Part shown: in pieces, positions 30,635-37,990 of the stretch
How positions within the stretch are numbered: position 1 is the first letter of the stretch
Layout of the letters: the number at the start of each line of letters is the position of its first letter
Source: Desulfomonilia bacterium
GTDB lineage: Bacteria > Desulfobacterota > Desulfomonilia > UBA1062
Length of the DNA: 64,000 nucleotides
Assembly: GCA_036567785.1 (NCBI GenBank)
Contig: DATCTV010000037.1
Coordinates: 248,001 to 312,000, forward strand
Reading direction: 5' to 3'
Position numbers and translations under genes: made by a program
The notes under the pieces: model-generated
The model's database searches: none
Told to the model about the DNA's origin: nothing
The model's input: the letters and a program-made list of their open reading frames with translations, nothing else

Positions 30635-31252
30635 TTATGCCTTTATCACAAGCTCCTTGCCCAGTTCGAATGCCTTTATATTTATTTCCTGCTTTTCCTT
30701 TTTGAATGTCCCTGCCATGACCTCGATAAAGTCAGGTGTGTCGAAAGGCAGATCATCGAGTCCGGCTATCGCCCCCATCATTATTACATTGCTCAGAATC
30801 GGTTCGCCAAGCTTGAGCGCCTCGTCTGTTGCATCGACGAATTTCACGTCCGAGGTCAGCTTCAAGAGCGCGTCATTAAGCTCTTCCCTGCTCGGGTATT
30901 TCTGATCTCCCGCTATGACGCCCACCGGATAGACCGGCCTCGAATTGCTGAGCACCTTTGTCGACGGATTGCCGTAGCCCGCCATGACCCTGAGTGATTC
31001 GATGGGCTCCAGCGCAACGATGAGGTCGGCCTTTCCTTTTGGCATCTGGGGGCTCCATGTGCCTCTGGCGGAGATCCTGATATGGCTCATGACCGAGCCT
31101 CCGCGCTGGGATACGCCGAAGGTTTCGCCAATCGTTATTGTATAACCTTTTTTTGCGAGAATATTGCCCAGCATGCGCGATGCGATAACATTACCCTGCC
31201 CGCCGACGCCAGTGATTATAACGTTGTAAGGGTCTTTCACGATAGCGCTCAT
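30635..31252 (-). CDS. iorB: Indolepyruvate ferredoxin oxidoreductase, beta subunit
   Basis: The 205-residue protein is the small gamma-type domain of 2-oxoacid:ferredoxin oxidoreductases. It contains VIITGVGGQGNVIASRMLG, the nucleotide-fold motif, and SQRGGSVMSHIRI. With IorA it oxidises aryl pyruvates, made from aromatic amino acids, to aryl-acetyl-CoA while reducing ferredoxin. The start ATG at 31252 overlaps the iorA stop by 4 bp (ATGA), which means translational coupling. A longer open frame to 31414 lies inside iorA and is rejected. A protein of about 200 residues is normal for the family. Confidence 0.92.
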   Translation of the reverse strand: MSAIVKDPYNVIITGVGGQGNVIASRMLGNILAKKGYTITIGETFGVSQRGGSVMSHIRISARGTWSPQMPKGKADLIVALEPIESLRVMAGYGNPSTKVLSNSRPVYPVGVIAGDQKYPSREELNDALLKLTSDVKFVDATDEALKLGEPILSNVIMMGAIAGLDDLPFDTPDFIEVMAGTFKKEKQEINIKAFELGKELVIKA

Positions 31253-33189
31253 TTTGCCACCTCCGCCTTCTTTATAGCACCTGACGGACATATGCTTGCG
31301 CAGACGCCGCAGCCGGCGCAGATTACCTCGTCTATACGCGCCTTTCCCGCCGCCTGGTCCCATATAAGGCCGGGGCACCTGAAAATCCTTGTACACAAGC
31401 GGTTGCACCCGCACTTTTCGCCCAGGCAGACATTCTCGTCAATGCTCACCTCGAAATATTTCCTGCCCTTTCTTTCCGGTGACAGTGCGCATTTCTGCCT
31501 CAAAATCATCACGCGCGTGCCGGTCTGGTTTCTCAGCATGTCAAGCAGGGCCGCCTCAGTTGCCTCGACATCGAAGGGGTCGCTTATCGCAGTCTTCGCT
31601 CCTACCGCCTTGCAGACGGCCTCAATATCCACATCCGGAACATCGTCGCCCATCACGCTGGCTTTGAGGCCGGGATGGGGCTGGAAGCCCGTCATGGCCG
31701 TTCCGCTGTTGTCCAGTATGACCATGATGATGTCCGATTTGTTGTGCACTGCATTCACAAGCGCGGGCATCGCTGCATGGAAGAATGTCGAATCGCCGCA
31801 TACACTCAACACAGGCTGGTCCATGCCGAATCTTCCAAGCTGGCCGAAGCCGCTTGCTATGCCTGTGCCCGCGCCCATGCAGTGACCTGTCTTGAGCGTC
31901 GAAAACCCGCAAGGCAGAAAGGCGAGCGTATAGCAGCCGATGTCACCACAGACGAATCCCTTGCGGTTATCCATGGCAAGCGCATTGTGAATGCCCCAGA
32001 ATGACGCCCTGTGAGGGCATCCTGCACAGAAGGTGGTTTCGCGGCTGGGGGCGTTGCCGAAAGAAAGCATATTTGCATTTATCTCGAATTCCTGAGGTAC
32101 AGGTTTGTAGTCGATTCCCAGAATGCCGGCAAGGGCTGCTATCACTATATCGGGATTGAGTTCACCGGTAGTTGGAAGCGTCGCCTCCGCCCTTCCGAAA
32201 AACTGCTTGACGCCTGTTTCATCCGCCAGTTCGGCGGCAAGAATCTTTACGTTGTCTTCGAGGAAAGGGAGAACTTCTTCGACAACGAGAATTTTCTTTG
32301 AAGCCGACAGATGCTTCTTCATAAGATTTCTCGGCAGCGGCCATGTGGTGCCGAGCTTGAGAATGCCTACCCTGTCTTCAACACCCAGGACATTGACCGC
32401 TTCCTTTGAATAGAAGGTGCATGCGCTGCTTGTGATTATAAGAAGCTCGGGCTCGACGGGGCCTGTGTATGTGTTGAAAGGGCTCTGTTCGAAAAGGGCC
32501 TCGGCCTTTTTCAGCTTCTGCTGCTGTATCGGATGCCAGTAGGCTACCGGCATGGTGTGGACCGGTCCTGTCTCGGGGTCGATCACGAATCCGTCGGACC
32601 TGAAAACCGCCTTCCTTTTCTCTGCCGGCAGGGGGCCTGTCTTAACCGTTCCGCTTGCATGGGAAAGGCGCGTGACGCTCCTCATGACCACAAGGCCCTT
32701 GATCTCTTCGGAGAGTTCGAACGCCCACTTGGTCATGTCCTTCGCCTCCTGGAAATCGCCCGGTTCAAGGAGCGGCAGTTCAAGCAGCTTTGCAAAATGG
32801 CGTGATTCGCCTTCGTTCACGCTTGAAAGAGCGCCGGGGTCATCGCAGGGAATGAGCACCATGCCTCCTCTTGTACCTGAAAGCCCCAGATGCAGGAGAA
32901 AGTCCGAAGCCACGTTAACGCCGTTCTGCTTCATGGCGACCAGCGAACGCAATCCGGCAAAAGAACCGGCTGCCGCGACTTCGACCGCCACCTTCTCGTT
33001 GACCGACCACTCCACATACAGGCCCCGTTCATCTGCGGCCTTTCCAAGATTTTCAATTATTTCCGAGGAAGGCGTACCGGGATATGCAGATGCGACCTGG
33101 ACGCCTGCCTCAAGCGCGCCCCTTGCTATCGCCTCGTTTCCCATCATCAGAAGGATGTCTCCGCCTTTTTCTTCCGTCAGTCGGCTCAT
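31249..33189 (-). CDS. iorA: Indolepyruvate ferredoxin oxidoreductase, alpha subunit
   Basis: The 646-residue protein is the TPP- and Fe-S-containing large subunit. The N-terminal pyrimidine-type domain has MMGNEAIARGALEAGV and SAYPGTPSSEI. The TPP-binding half has FCAGCPHRASFWG and CGDIGCYTLAF, then VCGDSTFFHAAMPALVNA and the metal site ILDNSGTAMTGFQPHPG. At the C-terminus there are two clusters, CLGEKCGCNRLC and CAGCGVCASICPSGAI. The reaction is oxidative decarboxylation of indolepyruvate or related aryl pyruvates with CoA. It overlaps the genes on each side by 4 bp, so the three are one coupled operon. Such enzymes mark an anaerobic, amino-acid-fermenting lifestyle. Confidence 0.95.
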   Translation of the reverse strand: MSRLTEEKGGDILLMMGNEAIARGALEAGVQVASAYPGTPSSEIIENLGKAADERGLYVEWSVNEKVAVEVAAAGSFAGLRSLVAMKQNGVNVASDFLLHLGLSGTRGGMVLIPCDDPGALSSVNEGESRHFAKLLELPLLEPGDFQEAKDMTKWAFELSEEIKGLVVMRSVTRLSHASGTVKTGPLPAEKRKAVFRSDGFVIDPETGPVHTMPVAYWHPIQQQKLKKAEALFEQSPFNTYTGPVEPELLIITSSACTFYSKEAVNVLGVEDRVGILKLGTTWPLPRNLMKKHLSASKKILVVEEVLPFLEDNVKILAAELADETGVKQFFGRAEATLPTTGELNPDIVIAALAGILGIDYKPVPQEFEINANMLSFGNAPSRETTFCAGCPHRASFWGIHNALAMDNRKGFVCGDIGCYTLAFLPCGFSTLKTGHCMGAGTGIASGFGQLGRFGMDQPVLSVCGDSTFFHAAMPALVNAVHNKSDIIMVILDNSGTAMTGFQPHPGLKASVMGDDVPDVDIEAVCKAVGAKTAISDPFDVEATEAALLDMLRNQTGTRVMILRQKCALSPERKGRKYFEVSIDENVCLGEKCGCNRLCTRIFRCPGLIWDQAAGKARIDEVICAGCGVCASICPSGAIKKAEVAK

Positions 33190-34316
33190 TCTGCACCTCC
33201 GGCTGAAATTATTTCATTAAGTACATCGGCGCCCAGGCGCATCATGGCCCGCGTTCCTTCGGCATCACAGTTGATTCTTCCCTCAGATGAGCCCTTGACA
33301 AACGCCCTCTGTTTTTTGTTTTTCGCGGCTGTTTTCAGGTGCTCCAGGTTTGCCGCAGGCATCTCGTCTGTTATGAGGAAGCCTTTTTTAACTGCATCGT
33401 CAAAAAAGCGCTCGCCGCGTTCCGTCCTTATTATAAGCGTATTCATATCCGGTCTGCCTTCGAGCACACCGACTGAAATGTCCGCAAACTCGGCGGTCAT
33501 GTCCGTACAGTAAGAGCAGGTCTCGGGCACAAGCCCCCTTATTTCCGATAACGGGAAGGTGAGTTTGCCGCCTTCTGTATATACCTCGAAGACCTCGGCA
33601 GGCGGGGGCGGGATGTCGAACTTCTTAATTGTTTTAATGTCGAGCCTGTCCTTCAGAAATGCTTCTAGCCTGCCATAATCAAGCGCCCATGTGCAGAAAA
33701 GGCCTATGATAACGGCTGTCGGGTCTCTGAAATTATCCATACCGGTCGGATTGAGTCTCATCTGTGCGAGGGAAAGCGACTGGCATGGTGTGGCCACAAC
33801 AGCGAGGTTGTCAAGGCCTTCTCTCACGGCGCGGTTTAGTGCCGAAAGAGATGGCGCCGCCGAATATTTCGATGAGGCACACGAAAGGACGCCTTTGGCA
33901 GTTTTTACGACCTTGGGCACAGGGAGCAGGCCTGAACTGTCGGTAAGGATTGCTGCCCTCGCCTTTTTCGATTTCAGTGCGGAGATTACAAGGGCCGTAA
34001 CGGCGCCTCCTGCCTGAAAATCACCTTTGCCGGTCTTATCCGCAGCCTTTGCGATGAGAATCTTCCGATATTCGCCGAGAGGTTTTGCCCTGTAAGCATT
34101 TCCGAAATATGCTTTTGAGAGCTCATCCAGGTCAACCTCTATCTTCGGACAGAAAGCGAAGCACCTGCCGGTGGCTGATGTGCATGGGAAAAGACTGACC
34201 GTCGTTCCTCGGTGATTTTTGAAATAAGGGCACAGATCAACACATGCCCCGCAACCTATGCAAAGGCCCTTTGACTGGACATCGGCGATAAGCTCGTTTG
34301 CGCCTAAAACTTTCAT
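33186..34316 (-). CDS. Fe-S / coenzyme F420 hydrogenase beta-like (FrhB/FdhB) subunit
   Basis: The 376-residue protein has an N-terminal ferredoxin-like region (GLCIGCGACVDLCPYF, then FPCTSATGRCFAFCPK). The FrhB/FdhB domain follows, with FQAGGAVTALVISAL, SKYSAAPSLSAL, ATPCQSLSLAQM, and CSYCTDMTAEFADISVG as the family Fe-S and flavin hallmarks. Relatives transfer electrons between F420 or ferredoxin and a partner enzyme through FAD. A GGAGG site precedes the ATG. Its stop overlaps the iorA start by 4 bp, so the encoded subunit is probably an electron acceptor or donor partner of IorAB. Whether it uses F420 cannot be read from the sequence. Confidence 0.83.
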   Translation of the reverse strand: MKVLGANELIADVQSKGLCIGCGACVDLCPYFKNHRGTTVSLFPCTSATGRCFAFCPKIEVDLDELSKAYFGNAYRAKPLGEYRKILIAKAADKTGKGDFQAGGAVTALVISALKSKKARAAILTDSSGLLPVPKVVKTAKGVLSCASSKYSAAPSLSALNRAVREGLDNLAVVATPCQSLSLAQMRLNPTGMDNFRDPTAVIIGLFCTWALDYGRLEAFLKDRLDIKTIKKFDIPPPPAEVFEVYTEGGKLTFPLSEIRGLVPETCSYCTDMTAEFADISVGVLEGRPDMNTLIIRTERGERFFDDAVKKGFLITDEMPAANLEHLKTAAKNKKQRAFVKGSSEGRINCDAEGTRAMMRLGADVLNEIISAGGAE

Positions 34317-34399: not shown

Positions 34400-35089
34400 T
34401 TAGCGATTCGCCGCCGCCTTTTTCTTCGCCTCGCTTACCTCATATTCCCTCAGACTCCGGGCCATATCCCGAACTTGATCGGGTAGGGCGTTGACCGGCA
34501 GTCCTGAAGATAGCGCCATATAGTATATGTGTGCCACCTTTTCGAGGAGTTCTGCGGCAAGCAGCGCCTTGTCCATATTTTTACCCAGGGCAATTATCCC
34601 GTGGTTCTGGATAATGTAGGCGTTGGCGTTGTTGCCCAGCTTGCCTGCAACACCCGCGGCCAGTTCCGGGCTGCCGGAAACTGCGTATGGGGTTACCTCG
34701 ACCGATTCGCCGAGCATGAAGGAGACCTCGTCAAAAAGTGCGGGGATGGGCTTGTTCAGCAGTGCGAAGACGCTCCCGTATATCTGATGTGTGTGGACTA
34801 CGGCGTTCACGTCCGGCCTTTCGCGGTAGATGACAGCATGCATCCCGGCTTCTACCGAGGGAGGACGGCAACCTTCCACCACGGAACAGGAAAGATCGAC
34901 GATGCAGATGTCATCCGGGGTGATCTCGTGGTATTTCACTGATGACGGTGTGATCGCCATCAAATTTTCGCCGTCTATCCTCACCGATACATTGCCTCCC
35001 GTACCCCTGAGTGAGCCGAAATAACCGTTGTCGGACAGCCATATACTGGCTTCGAGCACTTCATTCTGGTACTTTTCAAATTTACCCAT
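34400..35089 (-). CDS. Class II aldolase/adducin family protein
   Basis: The 229-residue protein is set to start at ATG 35089, with AAGGAG upstream; the longer open frame to 35221 has no ribosome site and lies next to the fusion gene stop. Family signs are RGTGGNVSVR, ITPSSVKYHEI, and the zinc ligands VVHTHQIYGSVFA and IIQNHGIIALGK. A candidate active-site acid lies in DEVSFMLGE. Family members split or epimerise phosphorylated sugars such as fuculose-1-phosphate or ribulose-5-phosphate. It lies 76 bp downstream of the kinase-dehydrogenase fusion on the same strand and probably acts after it in one sugar pathway. Confidence 0.87.
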   Translation of the reverse strand: MGKFEKYQNEVLEASIWLSDNGYFGSLRGTGGNVSVRIDGENLMAITPSSVKYHEITPDDICIVDLSCSVVEGCRPPSVEAGMHAVIYRERPDVNAVVHTHQIYGSVFALLNKPIPALFDEVSFMLGESVEVTPYAVSGSPELAAGVAGKLGNNANAYIIQNHGIIALGKNMDKALLAAELLEKVAHIYYMALSSGLPVNALPDQVRDMARSLREYEVSEAKKKAAANR

Positions 35090-35165
35090 ATACAGTTTTG
35101 CTCCTTTCAAGCTTTTTCGTTGGAAAAAAATAGTCCCTTTTTTACCTGTTTGTCCCTGTGCCGTA

Positions 35166-37832
35166 TTATGACGTGACTGAAGGCCGCTTGTTTTTAGAAA
35201 GCTCCTCAAGCTTTTTTTCATCCGGCTCGGGGCGGGGGGCCGACCATGAGAATGCCTGAAGCACCTCGGGATTAAGGATATAATCCGGTTTCTCTCCTGC
35301 CATGAGCTTTCTGATCTGACCTGCTGCTATCGCCCCCTGATGCGCCGCCGTTTCGGCGGTATTCCCGCCAAGATGAGGAGTGGCGATAACATTGGGGTGT
35401 GATACGATGGGGTCGTCCGATCCCGGAGGCTCCGCCGGGAAAACATCCAGGGCGGCGCCCGCTATTTTGCCAGATGTAAGAGCCCATAACAGCGCATCGT
35501 CTTCCACAAGGGAGGCCCTGGCTGTATTGATGAAGAAGGCCCCGGTTTTCATTTTTTCAAACGCCTCACGATTGATCATCCCTTTTGTGGCCTCAATCGC
35601 AGGGGCATGAATGCTTATAAAATCGCTTACGGAGAGCAGCTCATCAAGGGAAACCTTCTGTGCTGAAAGCAAAGCACCGGCCCCTTCGGTTACCATCGGG
35701 TCATAGAAGACGATTCTGGCACCGAATCGGGACAGTCTGGCAGCGACTCCTGCGCCTACATTTCCCATTCCCACCAGCCCCACGGTCTTTCTCCAGAGTT
35801 CTTTGCCCTGGTATTTCAGATAGGCCTCTCCCATCTTTGCCATGTCGCCCTCTTTCACATTTCCGCGCTTTAAGAAATCGGATGACCCCGGCATCATGCG
35901 GGCGAGCATGATCATGAAGGCGACTGTCAGGTCGGCAACCGCATCTGCATTACGTCCGGGTGTGTTCATTACGGGAATGCCAAAGGCTGTTGCCGCCTTG
36001 ATGTCAACATTGACCGCGTTCCCGCGGCAGGTGACGATCGCCCTGAGGTCCTTTGAATCGCGGATGGCGGGGAAATCTACCACATCCATTTCGGTAACGA
36101 ATATTTTTTTGCCCGCAAGCGCATCGGCCAATTCCTTACCGCCGTCGTACAACTTCATTTTTTCGCGCCATCCCTCGTAAACAACATTGCCTATGCTTTC
36201 GAATTCGCTGATGGCGGTCTTTTCAAGGGAAGCGGTGATGAAGATATCCGGCTTGAATGACGGATCGGCTGCCCTGCCCGCTGCGGGAGAGGGTTCGAAG
36301 AGCGAAGCGGTAAGAAGGTCGCCGATGCATGCATCGGCAGTGGCGCGTTTGTCAAAGGCCTGCCTCCATCCCGTATAGAGGTTCTGATATTTTTCCGCGG
36401 TTTTACCCGGCTTGTATTCGTTAAAAGCCATGGATATTTTTCTGGCGCCTGTTGCAGGGTCGGAGAACACTCCTGCTCCTACGCCTGCAAGCACTGCTGC
36501 TCCTAACGATGAAGCCTCTGAGACCGGAGGGACATTCACAGCGCATCCTGTCACGTCAGATGTGATCTGCGTGAAGAGTAAGCTTCCGGACATGCCGCCT
36601 GTAACCATAATTTTGGGTATCTTTTTGCCTGAGACGGCGATGATCTGCTCGAGGTTTGCCCGTACGGAGAAGGCAATACCCTCGATAAGGGCGCGGGCTA
36701 TGTGTCTGCGGCTGCGGGCCGGGTCTCCGGTAACCATGTGGGAAAAGGTGAGGTTTCCTACGGGCAGACCGACTGACCTGCCGTCGAATAATGCCGTACC
36801 GAAAGTGGAGTAAACGCCTGCGGCCCCGGGCAGCGAATCTTCCGCCTCTGCAAACAAGCCGAGGGCGGCATCGGGGGCGTCAGGATAAAGCAGGCGGGCA
36901 AACCAGTCGATGATGTCGCCGGTAATGAGGCCGTTGCTTTCCAGGACATATTTCCCGGGTACGACATGCTGTCCGCTCCAGAGCCGCCCGGAATCATCCA
37001 GTATCAGATCATCACTCACCAGCTGAAGCGGCATAGTGGTGCCTGCTATGACTGCAAGGTCGCCATCGGCAACTGCCCCGGCCCCCAGCAGACCGCACTG
37101 GGTGTCTGCGCCGCCAGCCGCAACCGGTATTCCGGGGACAAGGCCCAGGATATCGGCGCCTTCTTTTGTCAGCGGACCGAGATGCGAGCCGGAATCCACT
37201 GGCGCCGGAAAGAGCGAGACGGGAAGCCCCAGTGAGTTGATGAGATCGGATGCCCACTGGTTCTCTTTCAGGTCGAAAAGAAGCGTCTCTCCTGCCTGTG
37301 AGCGCTCTGAGGCGAGTTTTCCTGACAATATGAATGCAATCCAGTCGGTAACCGACAGCGCGGCGGTTGCCCGCTTGAAAAGATCGGGTGCGTTGTTTTT
37401 AAGCCAGATAAGACGGGTACCCAGGAACAGAGGTGTCGGCCAATGGCCTGATATGGCGTGTACTTCATTTCCACGTTCAAAGCCCAGCATCATGCCTTCG
37501 CCAAGGGCCCTGGCATCCTTGTTGGGAGTTGCCAGCAGTATCTCATTACCTGCATCAAGGACAACGGTCGTATTGCGCATACCGCTTGCAGCAATGCCCG
37601 CGATCTGTTCAGGTGCAACGCCGGCTTTTGCGAGCACCTCACGGGATGCTTCGCCCAGCTTTTTCAGGATGCCGGCGGTATCGATGGAAAAGCCGAGGCC
37701 GCTGGTGCCGGGTGCTGAAGGGTGTGTCCAGTTTCGCTTTGCTGTTTTTACCGCCCCTGTTTCAATATCCAGAAGGAGGCAACGGCCGGATCCCCCTCCT
37801 ATGTCGATTGCCATCAGGTATTGCGTTTTCAT
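35166..37832 (-). CDS. Fusion of FGGY sugar kinase and D-2-hydroxyacid dehydrogenase
   Basis: This 888-residue protein joins two complete enzymes. Residues 1 to about 500 form an FGGY kinase: AIDIGGGSGRCLLLD at the ATP site, AAGGADTQCGLLGAG with the catalytic Asp, GTALFDG and TGGMSGSLLFTQITSD. From about 525 a D-3-phosphoglycerate-dehydrogenase-type domain begins. It has the NAD motif VGMGNVGAGVAARL (near 686), the Arg in NTARASLVED (near 771), the Glu of DVFPAEPP (near 800) and the His of TPHLGGN (near 820). All catalytic residues are kept and no stop or frameshift splits the parts. AAGGAG precedes the ATG. With the aldolase downstream it suggests a kinase-oxidation-cleavage route for an unusual sugar or polyol. 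Confidence 0.88.
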   Translation of the reverse strand: MKTQYLMAIDIGGGSGRCLLLDIETGAVKTAKRNWTHPSAPGTSGLGFSIDTAGILKKLGEASREVLAKAGVAPEQIAGIAASGMRNTTVVLDAGNEILLATPNKDARALGEGMMLGFERGNEVHAISGHWPTPLFLGTRLIWLKNNAPDLFKRATAALSVTDWIAFILSGKLASERSQAGETLLFDLKENQWASDLINSLGLPVSLFPAPVDSGSHLGPLTKEGADILGLVPGIPVAAGGADTQCGLLGAGAVADGDLAVIAGTTMPLQLVSDDLILDDSGRLWSGQHVVPGKYVLESNGLITGDIIDWFARLLYPDAPDAALGLFAEAEDSLPGAAGVYSTFGTALFDGRSVGLPVGNLTFSHMVTGDPARSRRHIARALIEGIAFSVRANLEQIIAVSGKKIPKIMVTGGMSGSLLFTQITSDVTGCAVNVPPVSEASSLGAAVLAGVGAGVFSDPATGARKISMAFNEYKPGKTAEKYQNLYTGWRQAFDKRATADACIGDLLTASLFEPSPAAGRAADPSFKPDIFITASLEKTAISEFESIGNVVYEGWREKMKLYDGGKELADALAGKKIFVTEMDVVDFPAIRDSKDLRAIVTCRGNAVNVDIKAATAFGIPVMNTPGRNADAVADLTVAFMIMLARMMPGSSDFLKRGNVKEGDMAKMGEAYLKYQGKELWRKTVGLVGMGNVGAGVAARLSRFGARIVFYDPMVTEGAGALLSAQKVSLDELLSVSDFISIHAPAIEATKGMINREAFEKMKTGAFFINTARASLVEDDALLWALTSGKIAGAALDVFPAEPPGSDDPIVSHPNVIATPHLGGNTAETAAHQGAIAAGQIRKLMAGEKPDYILNPEVLQAFSWSAPRPEPDEKKLEELSKNKRPSVTS

Positions 37833-37990
37833 ATTAAGAAGCTCCTTTATAATAGAGGAAGTATGAATTTTTGGTTTTTTTATGTCAAGCCAATTTGCCT
37901 TGCATTTCAGAATATCGGATATGGTTTGAATCTATCTTTTAATGCTATTATATCAAGGCACCGGACAACGTTATACATTTGGAGGGGATC

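Follow-up and report, generated by a model that had tools for sequence, protein, structure and literature searches.

We analysed a 64,000-nucleotide stretch of DNA from a Desulfomonilia bacterium (here called the window) in which an FGGY kinase and a D-2-hydroxyacid dehydrogenase are joined in a single protein, with the gene of a class II aldolase directly behind. The fusion is probably a bifunctional enzyme responsible for steps one and two of a breakdown or salvage module of three steps, the aldolase contributing the third; we assign this reading a probability of about 0.6.

The fusion is encoded on the minus strand as one uninterrupted 888-codon frame beginning with ATG, and the plus strand across the same interval holds many stops (Table 1). 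Pfam matches to the kinase half comprised FGGY_N (3e-37) and FGGY_C (2e-21), both over their cut-offs, and those to the dehydrogenase half 2-Hacid_dh_C at residues 638-822 (4e-53) and 2-Hacid_dh at residues 567-854 (9e-12). Asp243 (within GGADTQ), Arg772, Glu801, His820, the GxGxxG loop and Asp711 (NAD) were invariant in nine fusions; with both kinase domains and the Asp on one side, and the NAD-binding domain and the Arg/Glu/His triad on the other, each half belongs to its family. No ATG occurs between Met468 and Met559, and the dehydrogenase half is therefore without an obvious start of its own. An AlphaFold2 model from a 27-sequence alignment (mean pLDDT 89.7, pTM 0.61) displayed two well-formed units connected by a long helix followed by a linker that is short and of low confidence. 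Since the position of the units relative to each other is not reliable, the model is uninformative on the channelling that the preliminary description had suggested. The preliminary description of this DNA, which named no strand, had claimed a complete kinase and a complete dehydrogenase in one 888-residue frame with the catalytic residues present, and a class II aldolase as the next gene. The former claim holds, on the minus strand, and the latter was borne out by Pfam (PF00596, 1e-48, 165.7 bits, cut-off 22.2) and by a Glu/His/His/His metal site.

Table 1. Features of the fusion locus, in window positions.
Feature	Position	Strand	Evidence
Fused FGGY kinase / D-2-hydroxyacid dehydrogenase, 888 aa, type A	35166..37832	-	Open reading frame check, Pfam, orthologs 74-79% identical over full length
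Kinase half, FGGY_N residues 5-250 and FGGY_C residues 260-452	36477..37820	-	Pfam, structure relatives
Catalytic Asp243 of kinase half	37106-37104	-	Sequence alignment
Inter-domain linker, residues 513-527, after long helix 479-512	36252..36296	-	AlphaFold2 model, local pLDDT dips to ~59
Dehydrogenase half, residues 528-860; triad Arg772/Glu801/His820; signature Arg603 (CRGN), Arg627 (PGRN)	35253..36251	-	Pfam, alignment
Ribosome-binding site AAAGGAGC, 8 bases upstream of fusion ATG	37841..37848	-	Sequence
Promoter-like TTGACA-17-CATACT upstream of fusion	37860..37888	-	Pattern match only; 7 promoter-like sites found in region, 3.3 expected
Class II aldolase, 229 aa; metal site Glu80, His99, His101, His163	34400..35089	-	Pfam PF00596, alignment; next gene in 10/10 type A loci with downstream sequence
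Ribosome-binding site AAGGAG ahead of aldolase ATG	35101..35106	-	Sequence

The dehydrogenase half has its fold and catalytic triad in common with D-3-phosphoglycerate dehydrogenase and the glyoxylate/hydroxypyruvate reductases. It differs from both in Thr601, in two new arginines, Arg603 and Arg627, in having no ACT domain, and in scores far below the curated cut-offs. Identity with D-3-phosphoglycerate dehydrogenase was rejected, since the phosphate-binding Arg75 of that enzyme (human numbering) is replaced by Thr601 and the curated model gave only 221 bits against a cut-off of 454. Arg603 and Arg627 occur in every module dehydrogenase, including the type associated with a phosphotransferase system (PTS, see below), and are absent from the other dehydrogenases compared, as would be expected if an additional anionic group, e.g. 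a phosphate, were bound. The Arg/Glu/His triad of D-2-hydroxyacid dehydrogenases itself requires a carboxylate.

The aldolase gene lies 76 bases behind the fusion on the same strand, and no terminator was called within this gap; the single transcript assumed in the preliminary description is accordingly a putative one. Its start was placed at 35089 rather than at 35221 as in the list of open reading frames, which would overlap the fusion, because of the ribosome-binding site and the agreement with orthologs. The metal site is that of FucA and its relatives (1fua and 6btd, the latter being the nearest solved aldolase). However, Asp120 occupies the position of FucA Tyr113, and the protein scores below all curated cut-offs, reaching 126 bits with the FucA model (cut-off 400); on these grounds an identity as FucA was rejected. 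As the catalytic Tyr113 is an Asp in type A, aldol cleavage remains a putative activity. The genes that follow the aldolase (30635-34316, minus strand) resemble an indolepyruvate-ferredoxin-oxidoreductase pair and an iron-sulfur protein; such a pair is also found near the module in locus L019.

The join of kinase and dehydrogenase is present in 17 genomes from several families, with 43-79% identity among those aligned, and occurs in two types. Type A, of about 888 residues with a separate aldolase, was found in the window genome and in G008, G023, G107, G263, G1144, G1198, G1223, G1239, G1247, G1251 and G1258, three of the copies running off a contig end. In type B the aldolase belongs to the chain itself and follows an SCP2 domain; this type was found in the window genome (L002/L022), G004, G276, G352, G1127 and G1128, split into two overlapping frames in the last. 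Few genomes carry a fusion: 6 of the 395 sampled across the phylum and 4 of 42 in the class. Among 399 genomes of Pseudomonadota none matched both halves at E 1e-90, and the plasmids searched yielded only separate LsrK or dehydrogenase matches. All fusions fall into one clade (100/100) in the kinase tree as well as in the dehydrogenase tree, and the fusion event thus probably took place once, as far as the two phylogenies tell. The aldolase gene follows type A in all ten loci with downstream sequence (the window, L019, L020, L023, L024, L078 in part, L085, L086, L087 and L090). The view of kinase, dehydrogenase and aldolase as a functional set, which had been put forward from the window alone, is upheld by this conservation, the aldolase being either next door or fused. 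Purifying selection is equally strong on all three enzymes, with dN/dS of about 0.1 (window versus L019: kinase 0.148/1.42, dehydrogenase 0.135/1.65, aldolase 0.131/1.14), although synonymous sites are near saturation and the ratio is accordingly rough. In one metagenome-assembled genome (G422, L011:8001-8851) the aldolase is intact and constrained while the fusion is reduced to a 42-residue stub; either the aldolase can persist alone, or the locus is decaying or misassembled. In L085 and L086 the next gene after the module encodes a sulfatase, with Pfam applied to the copy in L086; close to the module, L085 and L090 encode a SPASM radical SAM protein that might be a sulfatase-maturing enzyme.

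Separate-gene relatives were found in Bacillota, the phylum of Blautia, in which 20 of 300 genomes gave strong matches, mostly to a dehydrogenase and a kinase encoded as neighbours; in the loci fetched, the pair usually lies beside a class II aldolase. Both patterns that the preliminary description had proposed to look for, the same domain order in other genomes and separate kinase and dehydrogenase genes flanking the aldolase, therefore exist. The Bacillota module dehydrogenases share a single clade with the fusions (100/98) and carry the Arg603/Arg627 signature. In L051 kinase, dehydrogenase and aldolase are ordered as in the fusion, and the L051 aldolase clusters with that of the window (81/89); the aldolase of L054 groups with that of type B (100/99), types A and B having aldolases of different sublineages with 33% identity. 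Within the module dehydrogenase clade, the kinase is in most cases the one sister to LsrK, and a different FGGY kinase in L052/L068. In L065 and L067 galactitol-type PTS genes take the place of the kinase and are clustered with genes for a RuBisCO-like (MtnW-like) protein, a class II aldolase and a dehydrogenase that still belongs to the module clade. Judged by gene content, dehydrogenase and aldolase are the constant parts of the module, and the source of phosphate varies. The neighbours of the Bacillota modules are SorC-type sugar-binding regulators and Rbs-type ABC transporters, or MFS, IclR and aldehyde ferredoxin oxidoreductase (AFOR) genes; some modules adjoin genes for a xylose-isomerase-like protein, a Zn-alcohol dehydrogenase, a nucleoside-type ABC transporter and an adenosine-type deaminase, the last two (the deaminase as Pfam amidohydrolase) being seen in L055 and L056. 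An operon in L053 (L053:7356-12815) combines AFOR, an FGGY kinase, a 2-hydroxyacid dehydrogenase and a KDPG-type aldolase. This aldolase was rejected as a substitute for the class II enzyme, since neither the accompanying kinase nor the accompanying dehydrogenase groups within the module clades, and the arrangement is apparently convergent.

In the proposed pathway, the kinase half would use ATP to phosphorylate a small hydroxylated compound, for which a sugar acid or something closely related is the most likely candidate. With NAD, the dehydrogenase half would then oxidise the 2-hydroxy group of the phosphorylated product, and the ketone so formed would be cleaved by the zinc-type class II aldolase, both fragments feeding into central metabolism. 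Phosphorylation is placed first mainly because dehydrogenase and aldolase stay constant while the phosphate source varies, a PTS acting already at uptake. A sugar acid as substrate fits the dehydrogenase, the SorC, Rbs and PTS contexts, and the aldolase. An earlier suggestion that the pathway serves an uncommon sugar, polyol or sugar acid is only partly sustained by gene neighbourhood: SorC regulators and Rbs-type ABC or PTS genes accompany the separate-gene versions, but in the genomes that carry a fusion neither a sugar transporter nor a sugar regulator was found beside the module, and type B lies near lipid- or steroid-type genes. For the latter two reasons, the wording "uncommon sugar or polyol" is perhaps too restrictive.

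The type B copy in the window genome (L022:8720-12547, contig C34) has 1275 residues in the order kinase, dehydrogenase, SCP2 (lipid-binding), class II aldolase, and is neighboured by DUF1329, YCF48-like, MMPL and DUF1302 genes; in L025, L026 and L088 type B is flanked by genes for a P450, a KshA-type Rieske oxygenase, an AMP ligase and acyl-CoA dehydrogenases. Together with the SCP2 domain, these neighbours suggest a hydrophobic substrate. Type B might even process, within one chain, a polyol or hydroxy acid that is hydrophobic or lipid-linked and is bound by SCP2, while the two-domain version of the window would be its sister acting on a related or a soluble compound, in a catabolic pathway so far undescribed, but we regard this extension as speculative and rather doubtful. 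Breakdown of the hopanoids ribosylhopane or hopanetetrol, an idea prompted by SCP2, was discarded, as none of the fusion genomes yielded a squalene-hopene cyclase above the cut-off.

The alternative that survives best, though we consider it unlikely, is a classical ketose pathway in which the kinase acts on O1 of a ketose or deoxyketose, the aldolase releases dihydroxyacetone phosphate and an aldehyde, and the dehydrogenase clears a side product. An FGGY kinase paired with a FucA-like aldolase follows the logic of fucose and rhamnose breakdown, and 6btd is the 5-deoxyribulose-1-phosphate aldolase of B. thuringiensis. Nucleoside-derived 5-deoxy sugars would be the candidate substrates, in agreement with the isomerase-, alcohol dehydrogenase- and nucleoside-related neighbours of some Bacillota modules. 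A SAM riboswitch on B. subtilis yoaD points the same way (PMC12121620), but none was detected at the 15 sources scanned. Moreover, such a pathway supplies no carboxylate partner for the catalytic triad of the dehydrogenase.

The equilibria of the D-2-hydroxyacid dehydrogenase family usually favour reduction, and the redox step could hence run opposite to the direction proposed. In a reverse order of the whole pathway, which is likewise improbable in our estimation, the aldolase would act first and release hydroxypyruvate or glyoxylate, the dehydrogenase would reduce this product to D-glycerate or glycolate, and the kinase would phosphorylate it, so that the fusion would comprise the last two steps. 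The family indeed includes glyoxylate/hydroxypyruvate reductases (NCBIfam scores of 149-192 bits). Against this order, the known glycerate kinases belong to families other than FGGY, and the PTS that replaces the kinase in L065/L067 implies phosphorylation at uptake, ahead of the aldolase. In its favour, annotators of B. subtilis YoaDC had guessed that YoaD makes glycerate and YoaC phosphorylates it (PMC2885750), the function of yoaDC being a guess only.

Processing of autoinducer-2 (DPD), with the kinase as a functional LsrK and with dehydrogenase and aldolase in place of LsrG and LsrF, is very improbable. Both sequence and fold place LsrK nearest among characterised kinases: 5ya0, of the same FGGY fold, is the nearest solved relative of the kinase half (E 1.6e-62), and the Foldseek matches listed are FGGY kinases with LsrK first (5ya2, 3e-41, 31% identity, TM-score 0.86 by target); regulators of the SorC/LsrR type also adjoin the Bacillota versions. 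However, the module kinase clade (90/91) is sister to the LsrK enzymes from true lsr operons (100/100) and not placed inside them, the NCBIfam AI-2 kinase model gives 268 bits, half its curated cut-off of 528, and the pocket motif SMRE of LsrK is GMRN or SMRH in the module kinases. Identity with LsrK was rejected on these three grounds; in addition, the module is without an lsr operon and its kinase is fused to a dehydrogenase. That the join is an artefact of assembly or sequencing is practically ruled out: the window stems from a 64-contig draft assembly, but full-length fusions with a conserved linker recur in many independent genomes and contigs.

If the proposed pathway is correct, scattered bacteria make their phosphorylating and oxidising enzymes as one protein, beside or fused to the cutting enzyme, and the three steps become testable as a unit. 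Three unconnected annotations (AI-2 kinase, phosphoglycerate dehydrogenase and fuculose aldolase), each probably wrong here, are turned into one testable module, whose enzymes are tied together by the fusion and clade evidence and whose further members can be found by the CRGN...PGRN signature. Guessed functions such as that of B. subtilis yoaDC become testable as well, and, should the SCP2 version truly handle lipid-linked substrates, a new link between sugar-type and lipid chemistry would emerge. In the open-licence literature searched, no report of a kinase-dehydrogenase or a kinase-dehydrogenase-SCP2-aldolase chain was found. Relative to that literature the fusions are new, the enzyme families being known and the separate-gene module of Bacillota probably being represented by yoaDC.

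By description, the module resembles the 2-ketogluconate pathway, in which the kinase KguK is followed by KguD, a D-2-hydroxyacid dehydrogenase acting on the phosphorylated keto acid; that kinase is of another family, no aldolase takes part, and the two enzymes are not fused. The best-known separate-gene counterpart is probably B. subtilis yoaDC, likened to the module by enzyme families and arrangement. YoaD and YoaC are a dehydrogenase and an FGGY kinase of the same families in one operon with a transporter (PMC2885750), an arrangement resembled by the Bacillota MFS/AFOR versions (L051, L059, L064), but they are encoded by separate genes, whereas the window enzymes are fused. The closest documented precedent for fusing consecutive steps of sugar breakdown is RhaEW, a rhamnulose-phosphate aldolase joined to a lactaldehyde dehydrogenase with both activities demonstrated (PMC3870299). 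It is likewise a catabolic fusion, but joins the aldolase to a short-chain-type dehydrogenase (PF00106) without a kinase, whereas the dehydrogenase of the window belongs, by Pfam, to another family and is fused to a kinase.
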